Assembly: GCF_038432375.1 (NCBI RefSeq)
Contig: NZ_JBCAUS010000001.1
Coordinates: forward strand, 1-41,394
Source: Methanococcoides sp. LMO-2
Lineage (GTDB): Archaea > Halobacteriota > Methanosarcinia > Methanosarcinales > Methanosarcinaceae
Length of the DNA stretch: 41,394 nucleotides
Reading direction: 5' to 3'
Position numbers and translations under genes: made by a program. This document shows, piece after piece, positions 29,372 through 41,394 of the stretch. The notes beneath the pieces are model-generated. The model saw only the letters and a program-made list of their open reading frames with translations, searched no databases and was not told where the DNA came from. Within the stretch, counting starts at the first letter, position 1, and each line of letters opens with the position of its first letter.

Positions 29372-30160
29372 ATGGTGAAAGTAAAGATCAAAGACATGTG
29401 TTTTGGCTATGCCAGTACACCAATATTGGAAGATGTGTCTGTTGATATCCACAGATCAAGCTTTGTGAGCCTTGTAGGTCCCAACGGGGCTGGCAAATCG
29501 ACTATGCTAAAATGCATGAACAAGATATTGATGCCTGATTCAGGCGATATACACATCGATGGATGCAATTTGAAAAACATGAAGCGTATGGAAATTGCAA
29601 GGAATCTTGCTTATGTTCCCCAGAGTTCTAACAGGGTATTTCCTACAACGGTCTTTGAGACTGTATTGATGGGAAGAAGGCCGCATATTGGCTGGTTCAG
29701 TAATGAAGAGGACAAGGAAAAGGTCTGGCAGGTGCTTGAGGAAATGGGTATTGATGATCTGGCCCTATGCAGCTTTGATGAGCTTAGTGGCGGTCAGCAA
29801 CAAAAGATCCTCATTGCAAGGGCACTGGCACAGGATACAGGTGTTATTCTACTTGATGAACCCACCAGCAACCTGGATATCTGGCATCAACTGGATGTCA
29901 TGGAGAGCGTGCAAAAGCTTGTAAAGGAAAAGAAGGTCACAGCCTTAATGGCTGTACACGACCTGAATCTGGCTTCCAGATATTCCGATCAGATCCTGAT
30001 GATGAAAGATGGTAAAGTTGTTTCTGCAGGTGAGCCTTGTAAGGTTCTTACAACTGAGAACATAGCAAAGGTCTATGGAGTTGAAGCGCACGTACACAGT
30101 CATGCAGAAACGCCTTATGTTATGCCACTTAAGCAACTTAATATTGGTATTGGTATCTGA
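29372..30160 (+). CDS. ABC importer ATP-binding protein (FecE/BtuD type)
   Basis: This 262-residue ATPase powers the FecCD-type permease. It has the Walker A motif GPNGAGKST (about residues 35-43), a Q-loop in VPQSSNRVFPT, the signature LSGGQQQK, Walker B VILLDEPTS, and the switch His in AVHDL, all intact. The ATG at 29372 has AAGGAG ten bases upstream and follows the permease stop by one base. A His-rich end (HVHSHAETPYV) may be a regulatory or metal-linked tail. It is the last gene of the operon, and a stem follows at 30177-30197. Confidence 0.93.
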   Translation: MVKVKIKDMCFGYASTPILEDVSVDIHRSSFVSLVGPNGAGKSTMLKCMNKILMPDSGDIHIDGCNLKNMKRMEIARNLAYVPQSSNRVFPTTVFETVLMGRRPHIGWFSNEEDKEKVWQVLEEMGIDDLALCSFDELSGGQQQKILIARALAQDTGVILLDEPTSNLDIWHQLDVMESVQKLVKEKKVTALMAVHDLNLASRYSDQILMMKDGKVVSAGEPCKVLTTENIAKVYGVEAHVHSHAETPYVMPLKQLNIGIGI

Positions 30161-30197: not shown

Positions 30198-30303
30198 TAA
30201 TGTCAGATTTAATTCTCCTCCCATCTTTTTTATTTTTTTCTCTTAGCAATTTGTATTATCAACACAACAGACACATCATCATAATTATCATAGAATGCAA
30301 TAG

Positions 30304-30331
30304 TTTTATATACTAGCTACTTTATAGTAGT
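30304..30331 (+). promoter_or_regulatory. Promoter of small-RNA candidate 1
   Basis: TTTTATATAC at 30304-30313 is a TATA box about 29 bases before the RNA stem at 30338, and TAGTAGT lies at 30325-30331. The second copy has the same parts at the same distance, which supports a real promoter. Confidence 0.6.
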
Positions 30332-30337
30332 ATTTAG

Positions 30338-30450
30338 GCAAGACCGAAGAAAATCATATCGTACCACCACCACCACAAACTGATTTTTTATTGGTCATTC
30401 CATCACGGTCTTGCTATTACTCTTCATTCCGTTCTTCTCCTCAGGTTTCT
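30338..30450 (+). ncRNA. Structured small-RNA candidate, copy 1
   Basis: A perfect 9-base-pair outer stem (GCAAGACCG at 30338-30346 with CGGTCTTGC at 30406-30414) encloses a second stem, AAAATCA with TGATTTT (30350-30356 with 30381-30387). The 24-base loop contains ACC repeats (TACCACCACCACCAC). A conserved pyrimidine-rich tail follows to about 30450. No ORF is present. A second copy with the same structure lies 199 bases downstream, with base changes that keep pairing. The strand is set by the TATA box upstream. Function is unknown. The loop could pair with ribosome sites of the GGTGGT type. The 3' end is uncertain. Confidence 0.7.
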
Positions 30451-30502
30451 TATCATTTTAAATTATTATCTATTTAGTTTAAAACAAAAACGATTTCGGA
30501 AG

Positions 30503-30533
30503 TTATATATAATAAATAATATATTCTAGTAGT
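30503..30533 (+). promoter_or_regulatory. Promoter of small-RNA candidate 2
   Basis: TTATATATAA at 30503-30512 is a TATA box about 30 bases before the stem at 30537, and TAGTAGT recurs at 30527-30533. The arrangement matches copy 1. Confidence 0.6.
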
Positions 30534-30536
30534 CGA

Positions 30537-30645
30537 GCAAGATCGTAAAATCATATTGTACCACCACTACTAACTGATTTTGTTGGTTATTCCATCACCG
30601 GTCTTGCTATCCTTTTCATTCTATCCTTTCTTCAGGTATATTTAT
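30537..30645 (+). ncRNA. Structured small-RNA candidate, copy 2
   Basis: This copy repeats the plan of copy 1. GCAAGATCG (30537-30545) pairs with CGGTCTTGC (30599-30607), with U-G replacing one C-G pair, and AAAATCA (30547-30553) pairs with TGATTTT (30575-30581). The loop is 21 bases, three fewer than in copy 1, and reads TACCACCACTACTAAC. The segment TATTCCATCA before the closing strand and the pyrimidine-rich tail ending in TTCAGGT are also kept. Conservation of stems with change in loop length indicates selection on RNA structure. No coding potential was seen. Confidence 0.7.
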
Positions 30646-30711
30646 TCATATATGATAGCCAAAGCTATATCCTGGATATACTGTCATAAATATTAGTAAA
30701 TAAAAAATGAG

Positions 30712-30728
30712 TGCCGGAAATTCCGGCA
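30712..30728 (-). terminator. Terminator of ADH synthase gene
   Basis: TGCCGG and CCGGCA form a 6-base-pair stem around AAATT. On the minus strand it is followed by CTCATTTTTTATTT. It lies 18 bases past the stop of the aldolase gene. Confidence 0.7.
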
Positions 30729-30745: not shown

Positions 30746-31537
30746 TCAGTCTTCCATGGCTTCGTCTGCTGTCATTCCACCGTGTACGACCTTTGAGATC
30801 CTGGTCACAAGTCTTGTTGGATTGTCGGACTGGAAAACGTTCCTGCCCATTGCGACACCCTTGCAGCCGACCTGGAGCGCATCGTAGACCATTTCGAGTA
30901 TCTCCTTTTCGGTGTCCATCTGCGGACCGCCTGCGATCACTACAGGGACCGGACAGCCATCAATTACCTCTTTGAAGGAATCAGGGTCGCCAGTGTAGCT
31001 TGTCTTGACGATGTCAGCACCAAGTTCAGCACCAACCCTTGCTGCGTGCTTCACGTATTCCACGTCAGTCTCGGATACAACTTTTGCACCTCTTGGGTAT
31101 GTCATTGCGAGAAGGGGCATTCCCCACTCGTCACATTTCTTTGCGGTATATCCGAGATCCTGAAGCATTTCTGCTTCATCAGCTGCGCCGACATTGATGT
31201 GAACTGAAACTGCATCAGCACCCACCTTTATAGCTTCCTCAACGGTTGTGACAAGGACCTTGTGGTTTGGGTCAGGTCCGAGTGCTGTGGAACCGGAGAG
31301 GTGGATGATAAGTCCTACATCCCTTCCATATCCACGGTGACCGTGTTTTGCAAGTCCCATGTGGCCAAGGACAGCATTTGCACCGCCCTCTGCTACCTTA
31401 TTTACTGTTGATGGCATGTCGATCAGACCTTTGATAGGTCCTGCACCGACGCCATGGTCCATTGGTATTATTATAGCATTACCCGTATTTCTGTCGAAAA
31501 TACGCTCCATCCTGACAGATTTGCCGATTTCACTCAT
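30746..31537 (-). CDS. ADH synthase (2-amino-3,7-dideoxy-heptulosonate synthase)
   Basis: This 263-residue class I aldolase-like enzyme (MJ0400/AroA' type) makes the seven-carbon precursor of dehydroquinate, the archaeal entry to aromatic amino acid synthesis. The N-terminus ([22 protein letters not shown]), the [12 protein letters not shown] segment, the Schiff-base lysine region [11 protein letters not shown] (about residue 183), and [12 protein letters not shown] are present. Length is typical. The partner dehydroquinate synthase II is not in the window. A close relative with fructose-bisphosphate aldolase activity is the main alternative. Confidence 0.92.
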
Positions 31538-31672: not shown

Positions 31673-31909
31673 ATAATTTTCAACAAATTATTTCGAAAGG
31701 CTTCTTTTGTGAATATCAGTTCTCTCCATCATCTCTTTTTGTGAATTTGTTGAGAACTGTGTGGCTATGGTCAAATATATATACAACATCAACAATACAG
31801 GCAAAATTGATGTATGTAAAGTCAAGTTGTTTTAATTCGATGGCAAGTTCAAACCTGACTATTTCCCTATTTATAAATACATATTATGAAGGATTCTGGT
31901 GGCAATAAG
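31673..31909 (+). promoter_or_regulatory. Promoter and leader of the first MEDS gene
   Basis: AAATATATATAC at 31773-31784 is the probable TATA box. A 20-base leader segment at 31817-31836 matches the leader of the second MEDS gene (33805-33824) at 18 of 20 positions and a similar distance from its TATA box. This leaves a leader of about 100 bases. No other gene is seen between the dUTPase remnant and the MEDS start. Confidence 0.55.
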
Positions 31910-32953
31910 ATGCAAAATTCATCAAGAAAAATGGGCTTTCCTATATCAGATGTTCCGCATGGGGAGCATATTACGCTTGTATACAAAGAAGGCGATAAAG
32001 TACTTGATTTTGTTTCGTCTTTCTTAAGGTCCGGTTTTAAAAATAATGATCTATGCCTCTGGCTGACACCCGGGATAAAAGATAGTGAAGATCAGGATGC
32101 TTTTTTCGAGGAAAAGACCATTTTTGTTAAACAGAATTCCGGTTCATCTAATTTTGATCTTGTTTTTGTGAGTCCTACACTGCTTTCAAATGTAGAAGAT
32201 CTTTGCAATGCTATATTGGAATTTATCGAAAAGAAGCAAAAATATGCATCAAACTGTGGATTTGACGGACTGCGCATCAATATTGACCTGATGGCAGACG
32301 AAGGCCAGATGCTAAATTTCCTCAAACAATGCCGGAAATCTATCATTTCTGCAACTTCAGGTATGAACCTTACAACCCTATTTACCTGTCCTCTGGATTC
32401 TTTTTCCTCCTCTGATGTCTTTGATCTGATGGATGACCGGGAAAAATGTACTATTATGAAAAAAAATGGAATCTGGGTAAATCTGATGGATCTTATCAGC
32501 AGCAAGTACAGGAAAGAACTGCGCATTTCTTCTGAGCTGATGGTGAGAGAAAAGGAGCTACATTCGGTTTACTGTAATAGTCCTGTAGTTGCGTTCCAGA
32601 GGAATTCGGAAAATGGTTTCCCTGTTGAATTCGTTTCTGAGAACATATCCCAATTTGGTTATTCGGCAGAAGATCTCATGTGCAACAGGGTTCTGTATGA
32701 GGATCTGATTCATCCCTGGGACATTGACGATTATTTCATGTCATTTTCGGAATGCATTAAAAATGGGGATGCCAAATTTACAAAAGAATACAGGATCCTG
32801 GATCACAAATGTAATCCTCGCTGGGTCAATGAAACTTCATTGATCGAGACTAATAATTCAGGTCAGCCAACTCGCTTCCAGGGAATTATTGTTGATATTA
32901 CTGAAAGAAAACTTGCAGAAGGGTCCTTAAATGGATCAATGGTCAACGCTTAA
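31910..32953 (+). CDS. MEDS-PAS sensory protein without kinase
   Basis: This 347-residue soluble protein has an N-terminal MEDS domain (about 1-195, with DVPHGEHITLVYK and FTCPLDSFSSS), then one PAS domain with a C-terminal PAC part (about 205-335, NISQFGYSAEDLM and RFQGIIVDITERK). It stops there, so no histidine kinase domain follows. MEDS domains occur in methanogen and methylotroph sensors and are thought to sense C1-related signals. The ATG at 31910 is chosen because GGTGG lies seven bases upstream and the paralogues begin at the same aligned residue. An ATG at 31886 adds eight residues. A hairpin follows the stop. Confidence 0.85.
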   Translation: MQNSSRKMGFPISDVPHGEHITLVYKEGDKVLDFVSSFLRSGFKNNDLCLWLTPGIKDSEDQDAFFEEKTIFVKQNSGSSNFDLVFVSPTLLSNVEDLCNAILEFIEKKQKYASNCGFDGLRINIDLMADEGQMLNFLKQCRKSIISATSGMNLTTLFTCPLDSFSSSDVFDLMDDREKCTIMKKNGIWVNLMDLISSKYRKELRISSELMVREKELHSVYCNSPVVAFQRNSENGFPVEFVSENISQFGYSAEDLMCNRVLYEDLIHPWDIDDYFMSFSECIKNGDAKFTKEYRILDHKCNPRWVNETSLIETNNSGQPTRFQGIIVDITERKLAEGSLNGSMVNA

Positions 32954-32960
32954 TTTTTAA

Positions 32961-32980
32961 GGATCCCAGCGATCCATTTT
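32961..32980 (+). terminator. Terminator of the first MEDS gene
   Basis: GGATC and GATCC form a short stem around CCAGC, followed by ATTTTCC, eight bases after the stop. The stem is small, so confidence is moderate. Confidence 0.45.
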
Positions 32981-33130
32981 CCTTTATGTCCCGTATGGAT
33001 GTGAATGCTGGATGAAAATGAAAATGAATATTCTATAAAAGTTCTTATTAAAATGGATGGATGCCAATGGCATCCGGACACATTCATGCGCTCTTCCACA
33101 TTTCTCACTTAGGTGCCATCTAATTACACA

Positions 33131-33643
33131 TCAGATATTCTCATGCTGGTATCTTCCACAATAACCCTCATCCACTTCTGTGTGAAGGTGGTAGAAAAGA
33201 AGCTGCATTATGCGTGCATCTTTCTGAAGATCGAATCCTGCTGCATTGTGTACTACAAGCATGCATTCGCTCCTTCCACAATATCCTGCATCCCATACAG
33301 CAGTTTCAAGGGTGGCTCCGCACCTGATAAGGCTGGAACGGGGTTTAGCGATCGCTGCCAGTGTCTTCGGTATATTGACGATCTCATTCAAAAGGACCTT
33401 GTATATGCCGGGGTCGAGGTGTATCCATCCGTTCTCATCGAATCCGATCCTTTTCCCATCTGATATCTTCCTTCCTGAATTATCAAAGTCCACTGCTCCT
33501 GCTCCATCAATGGTCCTGACCTCCTGAAGTGTCATTTCCACACCGTTGGGCTGGAGCTGGATATCAATATCTATCATGTTCTCTACAAGAGGCGGATTCG
33601 CAAGTACAAGCTCTTTAAGTTCATTTTTTGATAAGAGGGTCAT
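33131..33643 (-). CDS. dut: dUTPase of the DCD/DUT family
   Basis: This 170-residue enzyme belongs to the dCTP deaminase/dUTPase trimer family. The motifs AKPRSSLIRCGATLETAVWDAGYCGRSECMLVV and DARIMQLLFYHL resemble the archaeal form annotated as dUTP nucleotidohydrolase, which hydrolyses dUTP to dUMP and keeps uracil out of DNA. A dCTP deaminase or a bifunctional activity cannot be ruled out from sequence alone. It is divergent from the second MEDS gene. No ribosome site is seen before the ATG, so translation may be leaderless. Part of its 3' end is repeated at 31571-31672. Confidence 0.82.
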   Translation of the reverse strand: MTLLSKNELKELVLANPPLVENMIDIDIQLQPNGVEMTLQEVRTIDGAGAVDFDNSGRKISDGKRIGFDENGWIHLDPGIYKVLLNEIVNIPKTLAAIAKPRSSLIRCGATLETAVWDAGYCGRSECMLVVHNAAGFDLQKDARIMQLLFYHLHTEVDEGYCGRYQHENI

Positions 33644-33764
33644 AGCTATTGGATGGTCTGGATGGCTTATTATGATTTCGGAATGCTTATTTGAACCATT
33701 TCCAGTGGTGTTTTTGTTAGTTTGTTTTCATAATTGATGATATAAGTTACCCCAATTGGCAATG

Positions 33765-33775
33765 TTTATATACAA
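33765..33775 (+). promoter_or_regulatory. TATA box of the second MEDS gene
   Basis: TTTATATACAA lies 40 bases before a leader motif (33805-33824) that is shared with the first MEDS gene. Together they indicate a conserved promoter-leader unit with a leader of about 100 bases. Confidence 0.5.
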
Positions 33776-33894
33776 TGCTGTTTTACAGTCGAACTTGTCG
33801 GATATAAAGTTAATTTGTTTTAATCAACAATTACTTTCACTCTCGTAATTTAGTCGTTACAGAAGTCCTCGATTCAGAAAAAGGTGTTAAAAGC

Positions 33895-34524
33895 ATGAAG
33901 GAATATTCAAGGAAAATTGGTTTGCCTATATCAGACGTTCCTCATGGCGACCATATAACGCTAGTTTATAAAAATGATGATAATGTGCTTGACTTTGTTT
34001 CATCTTTTTTAAGATCCGGATTTAGGCGAAATGATCTATGCGTATGGATTACGCCTGGGATGAAGGTTAAAGAAGATGCGGATAATATTTTCAAAGAAAA
34101 AACGATCTATGTAAACCATAATTCCTGTTCCACGAATTTCAATCTTGTTCTTGTAAATCCAGAAATACTTTCAAACGTTGGTTTGTTCTGTAATTCTATA
34201 CTGGAACTTATTGAAAAAAAGCAGAAATTTGTTCTTAAAAGCGGTTTTAATGGCCTGCGGATCAATGTTGACCTGATCGCAGATAAAGGTCAAATGTTTC
34301 CTTTCCTCGAACAGTGCCGAAGATCTATCATCTCTTCAACTTCAGCTATGGATCTTACGACATTGTTCACATGCCCTCTGGATTCATTATCCTCTTCAGA
34401 GGTACTTGAACTGGCCGATGACCGGGAAAAAACGATCATGAAAACGAATGGTATGTGGATGAATCTGGTAGATATGCTCAGTAGCAAATGCATGAAGCAA
34501 TGCGCTCTTTCACGCACTTGTTGA
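33895..34524 (+). CDS. MEDS-only protein, truncated paralogue
   Basis: This 209-residue protein is a MEDS domain alone (DVPHGDHITLVYK at residues 14-26, FTCPLDSLSSSE near 160). Alignment with the paralogues at 31910 and 34598 is good to SSKCMKQ. Then the frame meets TGA where the others go on to the linker and PAS domain. It ends 73 bases before the next paralogue. It may be a functional single-domain regulator or a decaying duplicate. The intact reading frame over 200 codons favours function. Confidence 0.8.
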   Translation: MKEYSRKIGLPISDVPHGDHITLVYKNDDNVLDFVSSFLRSGFRRNDLCVWITPGMKVKEDADNIFKEKTIYVNHNSCSTNFNLVLVNPEILSNVGLFCNSILELIEKKQKFVLKSGFNGLRINVDLIADKGQMFPFLEQCRRSIISSTSAMDLTTLFTCPLDSLSSSEVLELADDREKTIMKTNGMWMNLVDMLSSKCMKQCALSRTC

Positions 34525-34597
34525 AGTACAAAAGCCGATGAACATTAAATTGGACTTTATGAATTGTTATCATTGAAGATTTCCGGGCGTTGATGGC

Positions 34598-36706
34598 ATG
34601 TATGGATATTCAAGAAAGATCAAATTGCCTGTATCAGATGTTCCTTGCGGTGAACATCTCACACTTGTGTATAAAAATGATGATGATGTGCCTGATTTTG
34701 TCCACTCTTTCTTAGCTTCAGGTTTTGAACGTAATGATCTATGTGTTTGGATAACTCCCGGGATAAAAGATAGTGAAAACATGGGTGAGCTTTTCAGGCA
34801 AAATGCAATCTATGCCGATCATAATTCCTGTTCCACAAATTTCGACCTTGTTCTTATAGATCCAAATTTATTCTCTAATGCCGGTGCATATTGCAATGCT
34901 ATAATGGAAATAATAGAAAATAAACAGAAATATGCTATTAAAAATGGATTCAATGGACTGAGTATTAATATTGATCTGATCAGAGATGAAGTTGCGATAC
35001 TTCCTTTTCTGAGGGAGTGTCAAAATTCTATCATTTCCTTTAGTTCAGTTTTCCATTTTACTACTTTATTTACCTGTCCGCTTGAATCTTTTTCTTCTTC
35101 AGAGTTTCTCGAATTGATGGATGATCGGGAAAAGATTATCATGAAGGCGGATGGGGTGTGGATCAACCTGGTAGATCAGCTCAGTAGCAAGTACAGGAAA
35201 CACCTGCGAACTTCTCCTGAGTTAATGAAGAAGGAAAAAGAGCTGAAATCGATCTATAGGAACAGCCCTGTGGTGGCATTTCTCAGGAACTCGGAAAATG
35301 GTTTTCCTGTTGAATTCGTTTCTGAGAACATATCCCAGTTTGGATATTCAGCAGCATGTCTAATGTCTGATAAGGTACTATATGAGGATATAATTCATTC
35401 TGAAGATGTTTCTGATTATTTTTTGTCCTTTTCTGAATGCATAAAGAATGGCAACTCCGAATTTACAAAAGAATATAGGATAATAGATTCTGAACGTAAT
35501 ATTCGCTGGGTAACCGAAACGTCACTTATAGAATTGGACAATTCCGGAAAACCAACTCGTTTTCAGGGAATTATTGTAGATATTACTGAAAAGAAACTTG
35601 CAGAAGAAGCTCTGAAAAAAACAGAGCTAAGGTTCAAAACCCTCTTTGATCATTCAAATGATGCAGTTTCCCTTTACGATCTGACGGGTTATATCTATGA
35701 AGTGAATGACAAACTATGTGAGTGGCTAGGTTACACAAGAGATACCTTGTTGAAGAAGAACATACTTGATACGTTCAGTCCGGAATGTGTGGCGGTCTTC
35801 CATAAAAAGATGACAGATTTTTTCCATACTGGCGGATGCATCTTTGAAATGGTACATCTTCGAAAAGATGGATCTGAAATACCAGTTGAAATGAGTGCCC
35901 ATTTTATCGAATATAATGGTAATGTAGCTATTCTGAGCATTTCCAGAGATATAACTGCACGTAAAAAGATAGAAAAAGCCCTTTTAGAAGCAAAGGCCAA
36001 CGCAGAGGTATCAAATAAATTAAAAAGTGAATTCCTGGCTAATATGAGCCATGAACTCCGCACTCCTTTGAATTCGATTATTGGATTTTCAGATGTCCTT
36101 CTCTATAATGGTGAAGATCTGCTTAATGACAAACAGGTTAGATATATTACGAATATATCTAAAAGCGGCAGGCATTTATTAAGTCTTATTAATAATATTC
36201 TTGACCTTTCAAAGATAGAAGCTGGTAAAGCGGAGCTTCACTATGAAACATTCATATTTTTAGATATGTTGGATGAAGTATTGTCAATTGTTTCTCCTCT
36301 TGCGCAACAAAAGGACTTATGCTTGGATACAATTGTTGAATCTGATAATTTTTGCATTAATGCTGACAAGTTAAAATTAAAGCAGGTTATTTTCAACCTG
36401 TTTTCCAATGCTATAAAGTTCACTCCTGAAGGTGGTTCAGTACTTCTTAGGGCCAAAAAGACTAGTACGTCTTTGGTTATCAAAGTTGAAGATACAGGCA
36501 TTGGAATTCCAAGATCAGAACAACATAATCTATTTCATCCTTTTACACAGGTGGATTCAGCTTCGAATCGCAAGTTTGAAGGAACAGGTCTTGGGCTTTC
36601 CCTTGTTAAAAAATTAGTAGATATGCATGGTGGCAATGTTTGGGTCGAAAGTGAACCCGGTGTTGGAAGCACTTTTGGCTTTAGTGTTCCTTTGTCTCCT
36701 GAATGA
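34598..36706 (+). CDS. MEDS-PAS-PAS sensor histidine kinase
   Basis: This 702-residue soluble histidine kinase has a MEDS domain (about 1-195), PAS 1 with PAC (about 210-335), PAS 2 (about 338-460), HisKA with the phosphorylated His in NMSHELRTPLNSIIGFSDVLL (H485), and HATPase with LFSNAIKFTPEGG (N box), VEDTGIGIP (G1) and GTGLGLSLVKK (G2). No membrane helix and no receiver domain are present, and no response regulator gene is adjacent. It is the only one of the three local MEDS paralogues that can signal by phosphorylation. It may act on methanogenesis-related gene expression, as related kinases of Methanosarcina do. Confidence 0.92.
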   Translation: MYGYSRKIKLPVSDVPCGEHLTLVYKNDDDVPDFVHSFLASGFERNDLCVWITPGIKDSENMGELFRQNAIYADHNSCSTNFDLVLIDPNLFSNAGAYCNAIMEIIENKQKYAIKNGFNGLSINIDLIRDEVAILPFLRECQNSIISFSSVFHFTTLFTCPLESFSSSEFLELMDDREKIIMKADGVWINLVDQLSSKYRKHLRTSPELMKKEKELKSIYRNSPVVAFLRNSENGFPVEFVSENISQFGYSAACLMSDKVLYEDIIHSEDVSDYFLSFSECIKNGNSEFTKEYRIIDSERNIRWVTETSLIELDNSGKPTRFQGIIVDITEKKLAEEALKKTELRFKTLFDHSNDAVSLYDLTGYIYEVNDKLCEWLGYTRDTLLKKNILDTFSPECVAVFHKKMTDFFHTGGCIFEMVHLRKDGSEIPVEMSAHFIEYNGNVAILSISRDITARKKIEKALLEAKANAEVSNKLKSEFLANMSHELRTPLNSIIGFSDVLLYNGEDLLNDKQVRYITNISKSGRHLLSLINNILDLSKIEAGKAELHYETFIFLDMLDEVLSIVSPLAQQKDLCLDTIVESDNFCINADKLKLKQVIFNLFSNAIKFTPEGGSVLLRAKKTSTSLVIKVEDTGIGIPRSEQHNLFHPFTQVDSASNRKFEGTGLGLSLVKKLVDMHGGNVWVESEPGVGSTFGFSVPLSPE

Positions 36707-36800: not shown

Positions 36801-36813
36801 AGGGGGGTATAAT

Positions 36814-37353
36814 ATGAGCGATCTTAAGGCTATAATCTATATTCTATTCACGGCTGTCCTCTTACTGACAGTCGCTGGCTGTGTGCAGTCAGATGACACT
36901 TCCGCTTCTGAGCAGGAGGGCCAGGCAGTTGACGAGGAGCAGTTCGCACTGTCCTCAGAGGAAGAGTATACGTTATCACGGGTCAATGCGGCCATTGACC
37001 TGATACAAGAGAAGGGCGAACTGGCATTTCCGGAGTTCAGGGAAGCCGATAGTGAGTGGTTCCATGATGATTTCTACATATTCATCTGGAGAACAGACGG
37101 AATGCGTGTCGTCTATCCGCCGGACCTGAGTGGTGAAGGCCAGGACATGAGCAAACTTGTGGATTTCAACGATAAATCTATAGGCCAGATCTTCATTGAT
37201 ACAGCTCTCAGCGAAGAAGGAGAGGGTTGGGTTGATTACTACTGGCCAAAGCCTGGTGAGAGTGAGGCTTCAATGAAGCACACGTTCATCAAGATGACAT
37301 CGATAGGGAATGAGACATATCTTGTGGGGTCCGGTTTTTACGTGGATGAATGA
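36814..37353 (+). CDS. Cache-like extracytoplasmic lipoprotein
   Basis: This 179-residue protein has an N-terminal signal and lipobox (LTVAGC, Cys at residue 23), an acidic linker and a domain resembling a single Cache sensor. Features include ALSSEEEYTLSRVNAAIDLIQEKGELAFPEF, then FYIFIWRTDGMRVVYPP, and WVDYYWPKPGES followed by KMTSIGNETYLVGSGFYVD. These are typical of small-ligand-binding Cache domains. It lacks a membrane-spanning signalling part, so it would bind its ligand outside the cell. The start at 36814 is set by GGGGGG six bases upstream. A longer in-frame ATG at 36739 has no ribosome site. Confidence 0.75.
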   Translation: MSDLKAIIYILFTAVLLLTVAGCVQSDDTSASEQEGQAVDEEQFALSSEEEYTLSRVNAAIDLIQEKGELAFPEFREADSEWFHDDFYIFIWRTDGMRVVYPPDLSGEGQDMSKLVDFNDKSIGQIFIDTALSEEGEGWVDYYWPKPGESEASMKHTFIKMTSIGNETYLVGSGFYVDE

Positions 37354-38873: not shown

Positions 38874-38963
38874 ATGCCTTTTTTGTACCTGATGGTCTTT
38901 GGCATTTTCTGCCTTAGTGATAGTGATCTTTGCAGATGTGGACAATCTGGAAGATCGTTATAA
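38874..38963 (+). CDS. Leader ORF of 29 codons
   Basis: An ATG at 38874 follows AAGGTGG by two bases and opens a 29-codon frame that ends in TAA at 38961-38963, 15 bases before the ATG of the surface protein. The predicted peptide is hydrophobic at the start (MPFLYLMVFGIFCL) and has three Cys residues after it. It may be a leader peptide that couples or regulates translation of the surface gene, or a secreted small protein. The evidence is the ribosome site, the position and the frame. Confidence 0.4.
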   Translation: MPFLYLMVFGIFCLSDSDLCRCGQSGRSL

Positions 38964-38978
38964 TGTGGTGGTGGGGTT

Positions 38979-41394
38979 ATGAGGATTGAACGAAGTATAC
39001 TGATTTGTTTTGGGATGACTTTAGTATTGATGAGCATTGGAACGGTAACAGCTCTATCGCCTCCAATTGTTTACGTTTCCGCAAATAATGATGGTGACTA
39101 CAATTGTAATGGAGTAGCTGACCAGGTTCAGATCAATCAGGCTTTGGCTTATGTTAGGGATAATCCCGGGTACACTACGGTCTACCTTAAAAAAGATGGC
39201 CTTGCCAATGATTATATTATTGATGACACAATTGAAGTTCCTTCAAATACTACTTTTACAGGAGAAAAAGGGGTAGTTGTCAAACTAAAGGCCAATATCC
39301 CTAAACCTTCAAGTTACGAATGGTCAATGGTAACTGGTAATACAGCGGTACCTGGCCACTATTACAAGAGTGCCTACAATGTCACAATATCAAATATTAC
39401 TTTTGATGCTGACAGATGGAACCAGGACAAAATTATCGAATCCAATAAAGACATGTATGGTCTTATTGAGATACGCGGTCATGGGCTTACATTCCATAAT
39501 CTAAGCTTTATTACTGGAATAGGAGACTTTATAAAAATTCCAAACTGGCAGCAGATGACACCGGATGTTGAAATTTGTGATAATTACTTCGGACGTGCAG
39601 GTCACTGTGATGTTTACATACTTTATACAGGTTACACAGGCGATGACAGGATATGGATTCATGACAATAATTTCAGTTACGTTGCCTCCAATGCTGGTAT
39701 TCGTCTGGATGAATGTTCAGGTGCACTCGTTGAAAACAACATATTTACCTCAGACGATCAGGGAGATTCTGCTATCTATATGCTCTACAGGAACGACGCT
39801 TCAAGTTTTAGCAAAGATAACGAGATAAGGTATAATGAAATTTATAACGTCCGGGAGTACGGTATAGCATTATCGGCTGAAGTGTCAGGTGACAGTGTTG
39901 TAAAGTCTGAAACAACCGGTAATCACATCCACCACAATCTTATTTATAATACACAGGGTGACGGCAGGGCCGGTGGTATTTGTGTGTATGGATATGATGA
40001 TGTATTGATCGAATATAATACCATTAACGGGTGTGATGGTGACGGTATCACAACAAGGGAGTATTACGGCAGCACAAGTACAACCGGATTTATGATAACG
40101 GTAGAGAATAATATCATAACTAATTCTCAGCTGTATAATGATATGGGATATGGGATAAACAACGTTGAAAGTAGAAGACACACCATAAACAGCGATTATA
40201 ACAACTTGTATGGTAATGCACTGGGAAGCTACAATAATTTAGCAGCTGGAGCTCACGATATATACGCGGACCCGTTATTCTATGATACAGCCAATGGCAA
40301 GTATTATCTAAATTCCAGCTGGGGAACATGGAACGGTGCAGGGTGGGAAATAATACCGGTATCCAGTCTATGTATTGATGCCGGGGATCCTGCAGACAGC
40401 TACAACCTGGAACCTGAAAACAATGGTGACAGGGTTAATATTGGTAGATGGGGTAACACTATCTATGCTTCAAAGTCTGGTACAGAAGATGAAATCAATG
40501 TGTATCCTGGCTATTCCATCCAGGATGCTGTTGATGGTGCAACCAATGGTGATACGATTGTTGTCTATCCTGGTACGTACAATGAGAATGTGAATGTGTA
40601 CAGACAGGTGAACATCACTTCATCAGGTGGTGCTGCTTTGACGAATGTCACTGCTGTATCCAACAGTGACCATGTATTCGTGGTTACTGCTGATGGTGTG
40701 ACTATCAACGGCTTTAATGTCACGGGTGCCAGTATTGGAAGTAGTGGAATATCTCTCGATAGAGTTCAAGGATGCATTATCAGTAACAACAATATTAATT
40801 TTAACAAATACGGCATTTATCTGGATAATTCCAGCAATAACTTGATCTACAACAACTGCTTAAACAACACGAACAACACTCTAATTAATGATAGTACCGG
40901 GAACTTCTGGAACATCACCAAAACAGCAGGTACAAACATTATTGGTGGATCATATTTAGGTGGTAACTATTGGGCACACCCCAATGGCACAGGATTCAGC
41001 GAGACCAATAATACTGATGCAGACAGAGATGGCATATGCGACGAAACCTATACGATTGCAGCGGGTCACATTGACTATCTGCCTCTGGCTGCACCGTCCG
41101 TCTATCCAGTTGCTGACTTTACCGCTAACGTTACTGAAGGAGATGTTCCACTCACTGTTGCGTTCACTGATCTCTCAACCGATGCAACCTCATGGTCGTG
41201 GGATATTGATAATGACGGTACTGAGGATAACTCCAGTCAGAATTTCGTTCATACCTACGATACAGCTGGTCTTTACACTGTGAATCTTACTGTCAGTAAT
41301 ATCAATGGTACTGATTCCGAGGTCAAGACCGGTTATATCAATGTGACCTCAGCTCCGGTACCTCCGGTCCTTCCGGTTGCTGATTTCAGTGCCA
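38979..41394 (+). CDS. Large surface protein, beta-helix and PKD (partial)
   Basis: An open frame of at least 805 codons starts at 38979 and runs off the window end. A signal peptide (residues 1-27) is followed by a pectin-lyase-like parallel beta-helix (about 28-470). Next come a second NosD-type beta-helix repeat region (about 500-700, with GDTIVVYPGTYNENV, SSNNLIYNNCLNN, GNYWAHPNGTGFS and DGICDETYTI) and a PKD domain (about 705-785, with PVADFTANVTEG and DTAGLYTVNLTVSN). A new PKD start (PVADFSA) begins at the edge. Such proteins form the surface layer or bind polysaccharides in Methanosarcinales. The ribosome site is GGTGGTGGGG at 38967-38976. No C-terminal anchor is visible because the gene is cut. 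Confidence 0.9.
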   Translation, partial: MRIERSILICFGMTLVLMSIGTVTALSPPIVYVSANNDGDYNCNGVADQVQINQALAYVRDNPGYTTVYLKKDGLANDYIIDDTIEVPSNTTFTGEKGVVVKLKANIPKPSSYEWSMVTGNTAVPGHYYKSAYNVTISNITFDADRWNQDKIIESNKDMYGLIEIRGHGLTFHNLSFITGIGDFIKIPNWQQMTPDVEICDNYFGRAGHCDVYILYTGYTGDDRIWIHDNNFSYVASNAGIRLDECSGALVENNIFTSDDQGDSAIYMLYRNDASSFSKDNEIRYNEIYNVREYGIALSAEVSGDSVVKSETTGNHIHHNLIYNTQGDGRAGGICVYGYDDVLIEYNTINGCDGDGITTREYYGSTSTTGFMITVENNIITNSQLYNDMGYGINNVESRRHTINSDYNNLYGNALGSYNNLAAGAHDIYADPLFYDTANGKYYLNSSWGTWNGAGWEIIPVSSLCIDAGDPADSYNLEPENNGDRVNIGRWGNTIYASKSGTEDEINVYPGYSIQDAVDGATNGDTIVVYPGTYNENVNVYRQVNITSSGGAALTNVTAVSNSDHVFVVTADGVTINGFNVTGASIGSSGISLDRVQGCIISNNNINFNKYGIYLDNSSNNLIYNNCLNNTNNTLINDSTGNFWNITKTAGTNIIGGSYLGGNYWAHPNGTGFSETNNTDADRDGICDETYTIAAGHIDYLPLAAPSVYPVADFTANVTEGDVPLTVAFTDLSTDATSWSWDIDNDGTEDNSSQNFVHTYDTAGLYTVNLTVSNINGTDSEVKTGYINVTSAPVPPVLPVADFSA

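Follow-up and report, generated by a model that had tools for sequence, protein, structure and literature searches.

Background

Small RNAs (sRNAs) control outer-membrane proteins in bacteria, and to our knowledge there are few archaeal sRNAs with known targets. The closest described archaeal systems come from Methanosarcina mazei, where the intergenic sRNA41 is reported to mask ribosome-binding sites (RBSs) in mRNAs and where the structured sRNA154 possesses functional loops, one of them with an anti-RBS sequence, with RBS masking reported for this RNA too and a dual action in that it acts positively or on the stability of nif mRNAs (PMC5867862). Here we describe two tandem structured units in Methanococcoides sp. 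LMO-2, found in a window that comprises the whole stretch of DNA that we analyzed (41,394 nucleotides; contig NZ_JBCAUS010000001.1, positions 1 to 41,394, forward strand). RBS masking, as reported for sRNA41, is also what we propose for the family to which these units belong. However, the reported targets of sRNA41 are internal RBSs of the ACDS operons, whereas the predicted partners of the present family are surface-protein genes, and the present family is multi-copy and without a credible copy in the Methanosarcina-like genus g13. Likewise, sRNA154 is conserved in Methanosarcina, nitrogen-regulated and directed at nif/gln targets, and because the family we describe has no convincing member in g13 (31 genomes), which is taken to be Methanosarcina, the units are probably not a conserved Methanosarcina sRNA of the sRNA154/sRNA41 type.

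Outside the archaea, two reports on Neisseria describe NgncR_162 and NgncR_163 as related sRNA copies, siblings that have targets in common (PMC9973317, PMC4211561). We propose such a sibling arrangement for the present units, which differ from the Neisseria pair in being archaeal and unrelated in sequence, in using one fixed 15-nt seed over the Shine-Dalgarno (SD) sequence plus AUG, and in having one surface-protein class as their main predicted partners. Other multi-copy anti-SD sRNAs may resemble the present family as well. Within the methanogens, a dRNA-seq study of Methanolobus psychrophilus R15 found nine conserved intergenic sRNAs that are cold-induced (PMC5378194); the genus Methanolobus carries the present family, and some family members may already have been observed as transcripts among these R15 sRNAs.

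Structure and position of the two units

The original prediction, made from the sequence itself, held that two small RNAs of one plan lie 199 bases apart, and GCAAG indeed begins at 30338 and at 30537. The structured body of unit 1 spans 30338..30414 and that of unit 2 spans 30537..30607, both on the plus strand, and both match the covariance model described below (E 1.3e-12, 75.8 bits, and E 4.0e-11, 69 bits, respectively). Both possess the claimed 9-bp outer stem, formed by GCAAGACCG/CGGTCTTGC in unit 1 (30338-30346/30406-30414) and by GCAAGATCG/CGGTCTTGC in unit 2 (30537-30545/30599-30607) with the single C-G to U-G change that had been described, and both possess the claimed inner AAAATCA/TGATTTT stem (30350-30356/30381-30387 and 30547-30553/30575-30581). 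Folding gave -21.1 kcal/mol for unit 1 (z = -4.6) and -19.6 kcal/mol for unit 2 (z = -3.9), with none of 200 shuffles as good for either unit. Matching blocks of the two units make up the strongest direct repeats in the region.

The remaining parts of each unit follow the same order on the plus strand. A TATA-box-like element, as predicted, stands ahead of each unit (TTTTATATACTA at 30304..30315 and TTATATATAA at 30503..30512), some 25 bases upstream of where transcription presumably begins, and the homologues inspected also have TATA-like elements in front. The seed of unit 1, TCATATCGTACCACC (30354..30368), is the complement of an SD sequence plus AUG, is near invariant among 32 aligned homologues and has its reverse complement at translation starts, and the seed of unit 2, TCATATTGTACCACC (30551..30565), is one base off it. 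Each unit ends in a pyrimidine-rich 3' tail (30415..30450 and 30608..30645) that is probably a terminator. The loops had been said to differ by exactly one triplet, which is correct for their length, but they also differ by several substitutions, including a C to T change within the conserved 15-mer. In agreement with the prediction, the region contains no open reading frame (ORF) that reaches 60 aa.

Upstream of the units an ABC-transporter ATPase gene on the plus strand ends at 30160, and downstream lies a 2-amino-3,7-dideoxy-D-threo-hept-6-ulosonate synthase gene (30746-31537) on the minus strand. Because this downstream gene is convergent, we rejected the possibility that the units are its cis-acting leader. 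C/D box guide sRNAs were rejected as well, as CUGA is found in the inner 3' arm but RUGAUGA is absent from the plus strand of both units. Elsewhere in the window, a tRNA-Cys gene sits between two 5S rRNA genes at the contig edge (13-559), and three adjacent ORFs at 31886-36706 share related N-terminal parts (MKDSGGNK.., MKEYSRK.., MYGYSRK..), the last of them encoding a large histidine kinase; this trio probably arose by tandem duplication.

Distribution and conservation of the family

The original prediction named a comparison with Rfam and a covariance search over archaeal genomes among its checks. Across the whole window, the 4227 models of Rfam 15 at gathering cut-off returned the two 5S rRNAs and one tRNA and nothing at the units, and a permissive Rfam scan of 30200-30720 gave sub-threshold chance matches only; neither unit matches any Rfam family, and the two belong to a family so far absent from that database. 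Searching with unit 1 by blastn revealed relatives in 46 of the 112 genomes that represent the taxonomic family, some of which hold more than one copy or copies in tandem, and a pattern scan of genomes placed them in Methanococcoides, Methanolobus, Methanohalophilus, Methanomethylovorans and other Methanosarcinaceae, with a few further matching records set aside for absence of the stems.

We built a covariance model from 32 diverse members, which matched 61 of 238 genomes from the class. Among these matches, two were weak (E about 0.008), fell in apparent coding sequence of g13 genomes and were judged spurious, leaving 59 genomes from seven genera. The model thus gave no convincing copy in g13 (31 genomes), which is taken to be Methanosarcina, and no homologue in 126 genomes outside the taxonomic family. 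Nothing in the plasmid records searched matched the sRNA, and five viral-contig matches to the 16-mer seed all came without the sRNA stems, so that we saw no sign of phage carriage.

The claim that structure is kept while sequence drifts could not be carried by the two copies, between which a single pair varies, and the evidence for conserved structure therefore comes from the homologues. Among these, the outer stem shows covariation: pairing is kept in 97.6% of cells, 4 of 8 pairs are changed on both sides, and such double changes occupy 21 cells as compared with 5.6 in shuffles. The inner stem is swapped between genera (AAAATCA/TGATTTT, AATCATAT/ATATGATT, AAAGCAG/CTGCTTT and AAAAAATC/GATTTTTT), and yet the 15 loop bases UCAUAUCGUACCACC hardly vary over the 32 aligned homologues. 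In folds the loop is mostly unpaired, although when sequences are folded singly the seed is not fully open (mean unpaired value 0.79 over ATCGTACCACC). Homologues in 59 genomes, the covarying outer stem, the promoter-like TATA elements and the nearly invariant loop all support the suggestion that these are regulatory RNAs.

Loop complementarity to translation starts

The reverse complement of the loop reads GGUGGUACGAU-AUG-A, an SD sequence plus start codon, or GGTGGTACGATATGA as DNA, where the SD sequence, a spacer and ATG-A follow one another. GGUGGU is able to pair with AUCACC of the archaeal 16S tail. Allowing at most one mismatch, GGTGGTACGATATGA occurred in 61 of the 112 family genomes (the sRNAs themselves included), and in 0 of the 31 g13 genomes and 0 of the 4 g5 genomes, both genera being without the sRNA; the reversed pattern, as a control, gave almost no matches in the 112 genomes.

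Reading out more than 40 stretches around seed-complementary sites revealed that, at sites other than the sRNAs, the ATG is mostly in register and opens a protein whose N-terminus is a signal peptide, with some sites representing tiny ORFs or coding coincidences. When distinct proteins from these sites were compared with NCBIfam models, the majority showed a PEF-CTERM sorting signal at the C-terminus, with positive genes at ten loci (two genes at L123). A second class at such sites has a signal peptide and a mature part beginning CYLNDVQ, and gave no PEF-CTERM match in the part examined. Two Methanolobus loci, L064 (one of the ten positive loci) and L068, had been considered as further hairpin sRNAs but are actually places where secreted proteins begin on the opposite strand.

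For a selection made apart from the seed, we located PEF-CTERM genes by their C-terminal signal alone and hybridized the loop in silico to their start regions, using duplex energies because ungapped scoring under-counts PEF starts, whose spacer length shifts by about one base. PEF genes of sRNA-bearing genera had a median duplex of -17.5 kcal/mol (n=44), with 31 of 44 at -15 or better, as compared with -10.9 kcal/mol and 1 of 27 in genera without the sRNA (p 1.4e-6) and with -8.8 kcal/mol and 6 of 88 among other ORFs of the same loci (p 1.4e-10), although both p values overstate the strength since related genes are not independent. The best-pairing of those other ORFs themselves encode signal-peptide proteins, and the reversed loop reached -11.4 kcal/mol on the same PEF genes of sRNA-bearing genera. 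The contrast is plain in the sequence before the ATG of PEF genes, which is GGTGGTAC.. in genera with the sRNA versus AGGGGTAGATT or GGTTGTTA in those without.

At the level of the taxonomic family, these sequence comparisons indicate a loop complementary to start sites of surface-protein genes beyond chance. A conserved RNA structure and a conserved seed thus occur together with seed-complementary start sites that show class and genus specificity. Our search of open-access literature brought up no paper tying archaeosortase or PEF-CTERM to an sRNA, nor any regulator for the surface proteins that archaeosortase sorts.

Candidate targets in Methanococcoides sp. LMO-2

The genome of the window has no archaeosortase C and no convincing PEF-CTERM protein, and outside the sRNAs it holds no match to the 15-mer within one mismatch, from which we conclude that the main regulon is absent here. 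At two mismatches or fewer, the full-length target was found at the sRNAs and at one chance site only. Most Methanohalophilus genomes resemble this genome in that the sRNAs persist and the main regulon is absent.

Pairing predictions point to two candidate sites within the window, both on the plus strand. The first, GGGGGTATAATATGA at 36803..36817, contains the RBS and start codon of a secreted Cache-domain lipoprotein (ORF 36814-37353), can pair at 14 of 15 positions with the unit 2 seed (duplex -20.2 kcal/mol) and has an RBS that is near-identical in three congeneric orthologues. The second, ..GTGGTGGTGGGGTTATGAGG at 38957..38984, contains the RBS and start codon for a secreted, surface-located protein with Disaggr_assoc/NosD/PKD domains (ORF 38979 to the window end) and is predicted to pair with unit 1 through its ACC-repeat loop at -29.1 kcal/mol, the best of 36 window genes; it is retained in the orthologues of two congeners (-29.1 and -23.3 kcal/mol) and not in paralogues. 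The two best-pairing starts among the 36 window genes thus both belong to secreted proteins, with the third at -15.3 kcal/mol.

In a sample of 729 genes from this genome, secreted proteins were weakly enriched among the best pairings (5 of 77 versus 12 of 652, p 0.026), and the reversed loop paired about as well as the real one. Given this weak enrichment and the similar reversed loop, the genes at 36814 and 38979 stay candidates, although they may be among the likeliest targets in a species without PEF-CTERM. The start of mtrG (GGTGGTGTAATATGA; C7:42418, L176:501-515) can pair with unit 2 over all 15 bases, two of them as G-U, and recurs in most Methanococcoides; because the last codons of the gene upstream lie within this site, we left it out as evidence.

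Proposed mechanism and alternatives

We propose, with a probability of about 0.78, that the two units are sibling trans-acting sRNAs that repress translation of secreted surface proteins, above all PEF-CTERM proteins, by masking the SD sequence and AUG. Their RNA family occurs in the majority of the methylotrophic genera within a single methanogen family, and its closed outer stem would present a single-stranded loop whose 15 bases UCAUAUCGUACCACC would pair with the SD sequence, spacer and start codon GGUGGUACGAUAUGA of surface-protein mRNAs, chiefly those of archaeosortase-sorted PEF-CTERM proteins. Such pairing would hide the RBS and AUG, and as the loop is the exact complement of an RBS plus start codon, the sRNAs probably switch translation off. 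In the PEF-CTERM-less species of the window, the likeliest partners would be other secreted proteins, including those at 36814 and 38979. That the units are transcribed, that they pair with mRNAs inside cells and that the outcome is repression and not activation are the parts of this reading that we infer from sequence. If the reading is true, the family would play in archaea the part that sRNAs acting on outer-membrane proteins play in bacteria, possibly with a built-in sponge, and since in several genera the seed corresponds to the SD sequence and AUG of one defined class of proteins, simple compensatory mutations can test it.

Evidence for pairing alone leaves the sign of the effect unfixed, and a dual action is reported for sRNA154 (PMC5867862), so that the RNAs might pair with the same mRNA starts and yet activate them or alter their stability, either through protection of the 5' region against nucleases or through opening of a leader structure; we consider this improbable, as a complement that spans the SD sequence, spacer and AUG exactly should block initiation. 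More doubtful again is the view that G-rich ribosome-binding sites merely meet a C-rich loop and that the RNAs have other partners. The near-equal performance of the reversed loop on secreted-protein starts of the window's genome would fit such a view, but the non-SD part ACGAT and the AUG register are matched exactly in many genomes, the motif is absent from PEF genes of genera without the sRNA, and on PEF genes the reversed loop is 6 kcal/mol weaker. Finally, the presence of multiple tandem copies whose loop is strictly conserved resembles what is seen in RNAs that titrate a protein, but a CsrB-like role, in which the loop would bind a protein that also recognizes the RBS region, is very unlikely, since the start sites bear the reverse complement of the loop rather than its sequence, which indicates RNA-RNA pairing, and since a Methanolobus RNA described below retains that complement in a sponge-like manner.

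Further elements in related genera

Beyond the sibling sRNAs proposed to repress translation, Methanolobus possesses a second sRNA-like hairpin, GGCCGGGT..TCATATCGTACCACC..ATCCGGCC, with the same seed, an unrelated stem and a TATA box upstream. It was seen at nine Methanolobus loci with a GGCCGG stem, a seed at times changed by one base, and a loop with CCAACC repeats. A further conserved and transcript-like Methanolobus element, here called type C, was seen at seven loci and comprises a TATA box, an invariant CGGTGGTACGATATG and a 3' inverted repeat (GAACG.TAACAAACC with GGTTTGTTA.CGTTC), its only ORFs being tiny and unconserved. Because it carries the target sequence and not the seed, the type C RNA is a candidate sponge for the sRNA, this being its natural reading.

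In Methanohalophilus (genome G032), four seed-complementary sites lie in a row at L127:7840-8000, 44-48 bases apart, and at the last of them a gene for a PEF-CTERM/PKD surface protein begins; this leader may possibly serve as a decoy array. Taken together, sibling sRNAs that use two or more unrelated scaffolds to present one fixed 15-nt seed against PEF-CTERM start sites, a sponge in Methanolobus and sRNAs moved to other secreted proteins where PEF-CTERM was lost could form a three-layer riboregulatory circuit for the archaeal cell surface, a broader proposal for which we see about even odds. Separately, four Methanococcoides genomes hold a third element, a weak match with the stem TGAGTAAGGTT/AACCTT.CTCA and the loop TCATACCGTACCAAC.
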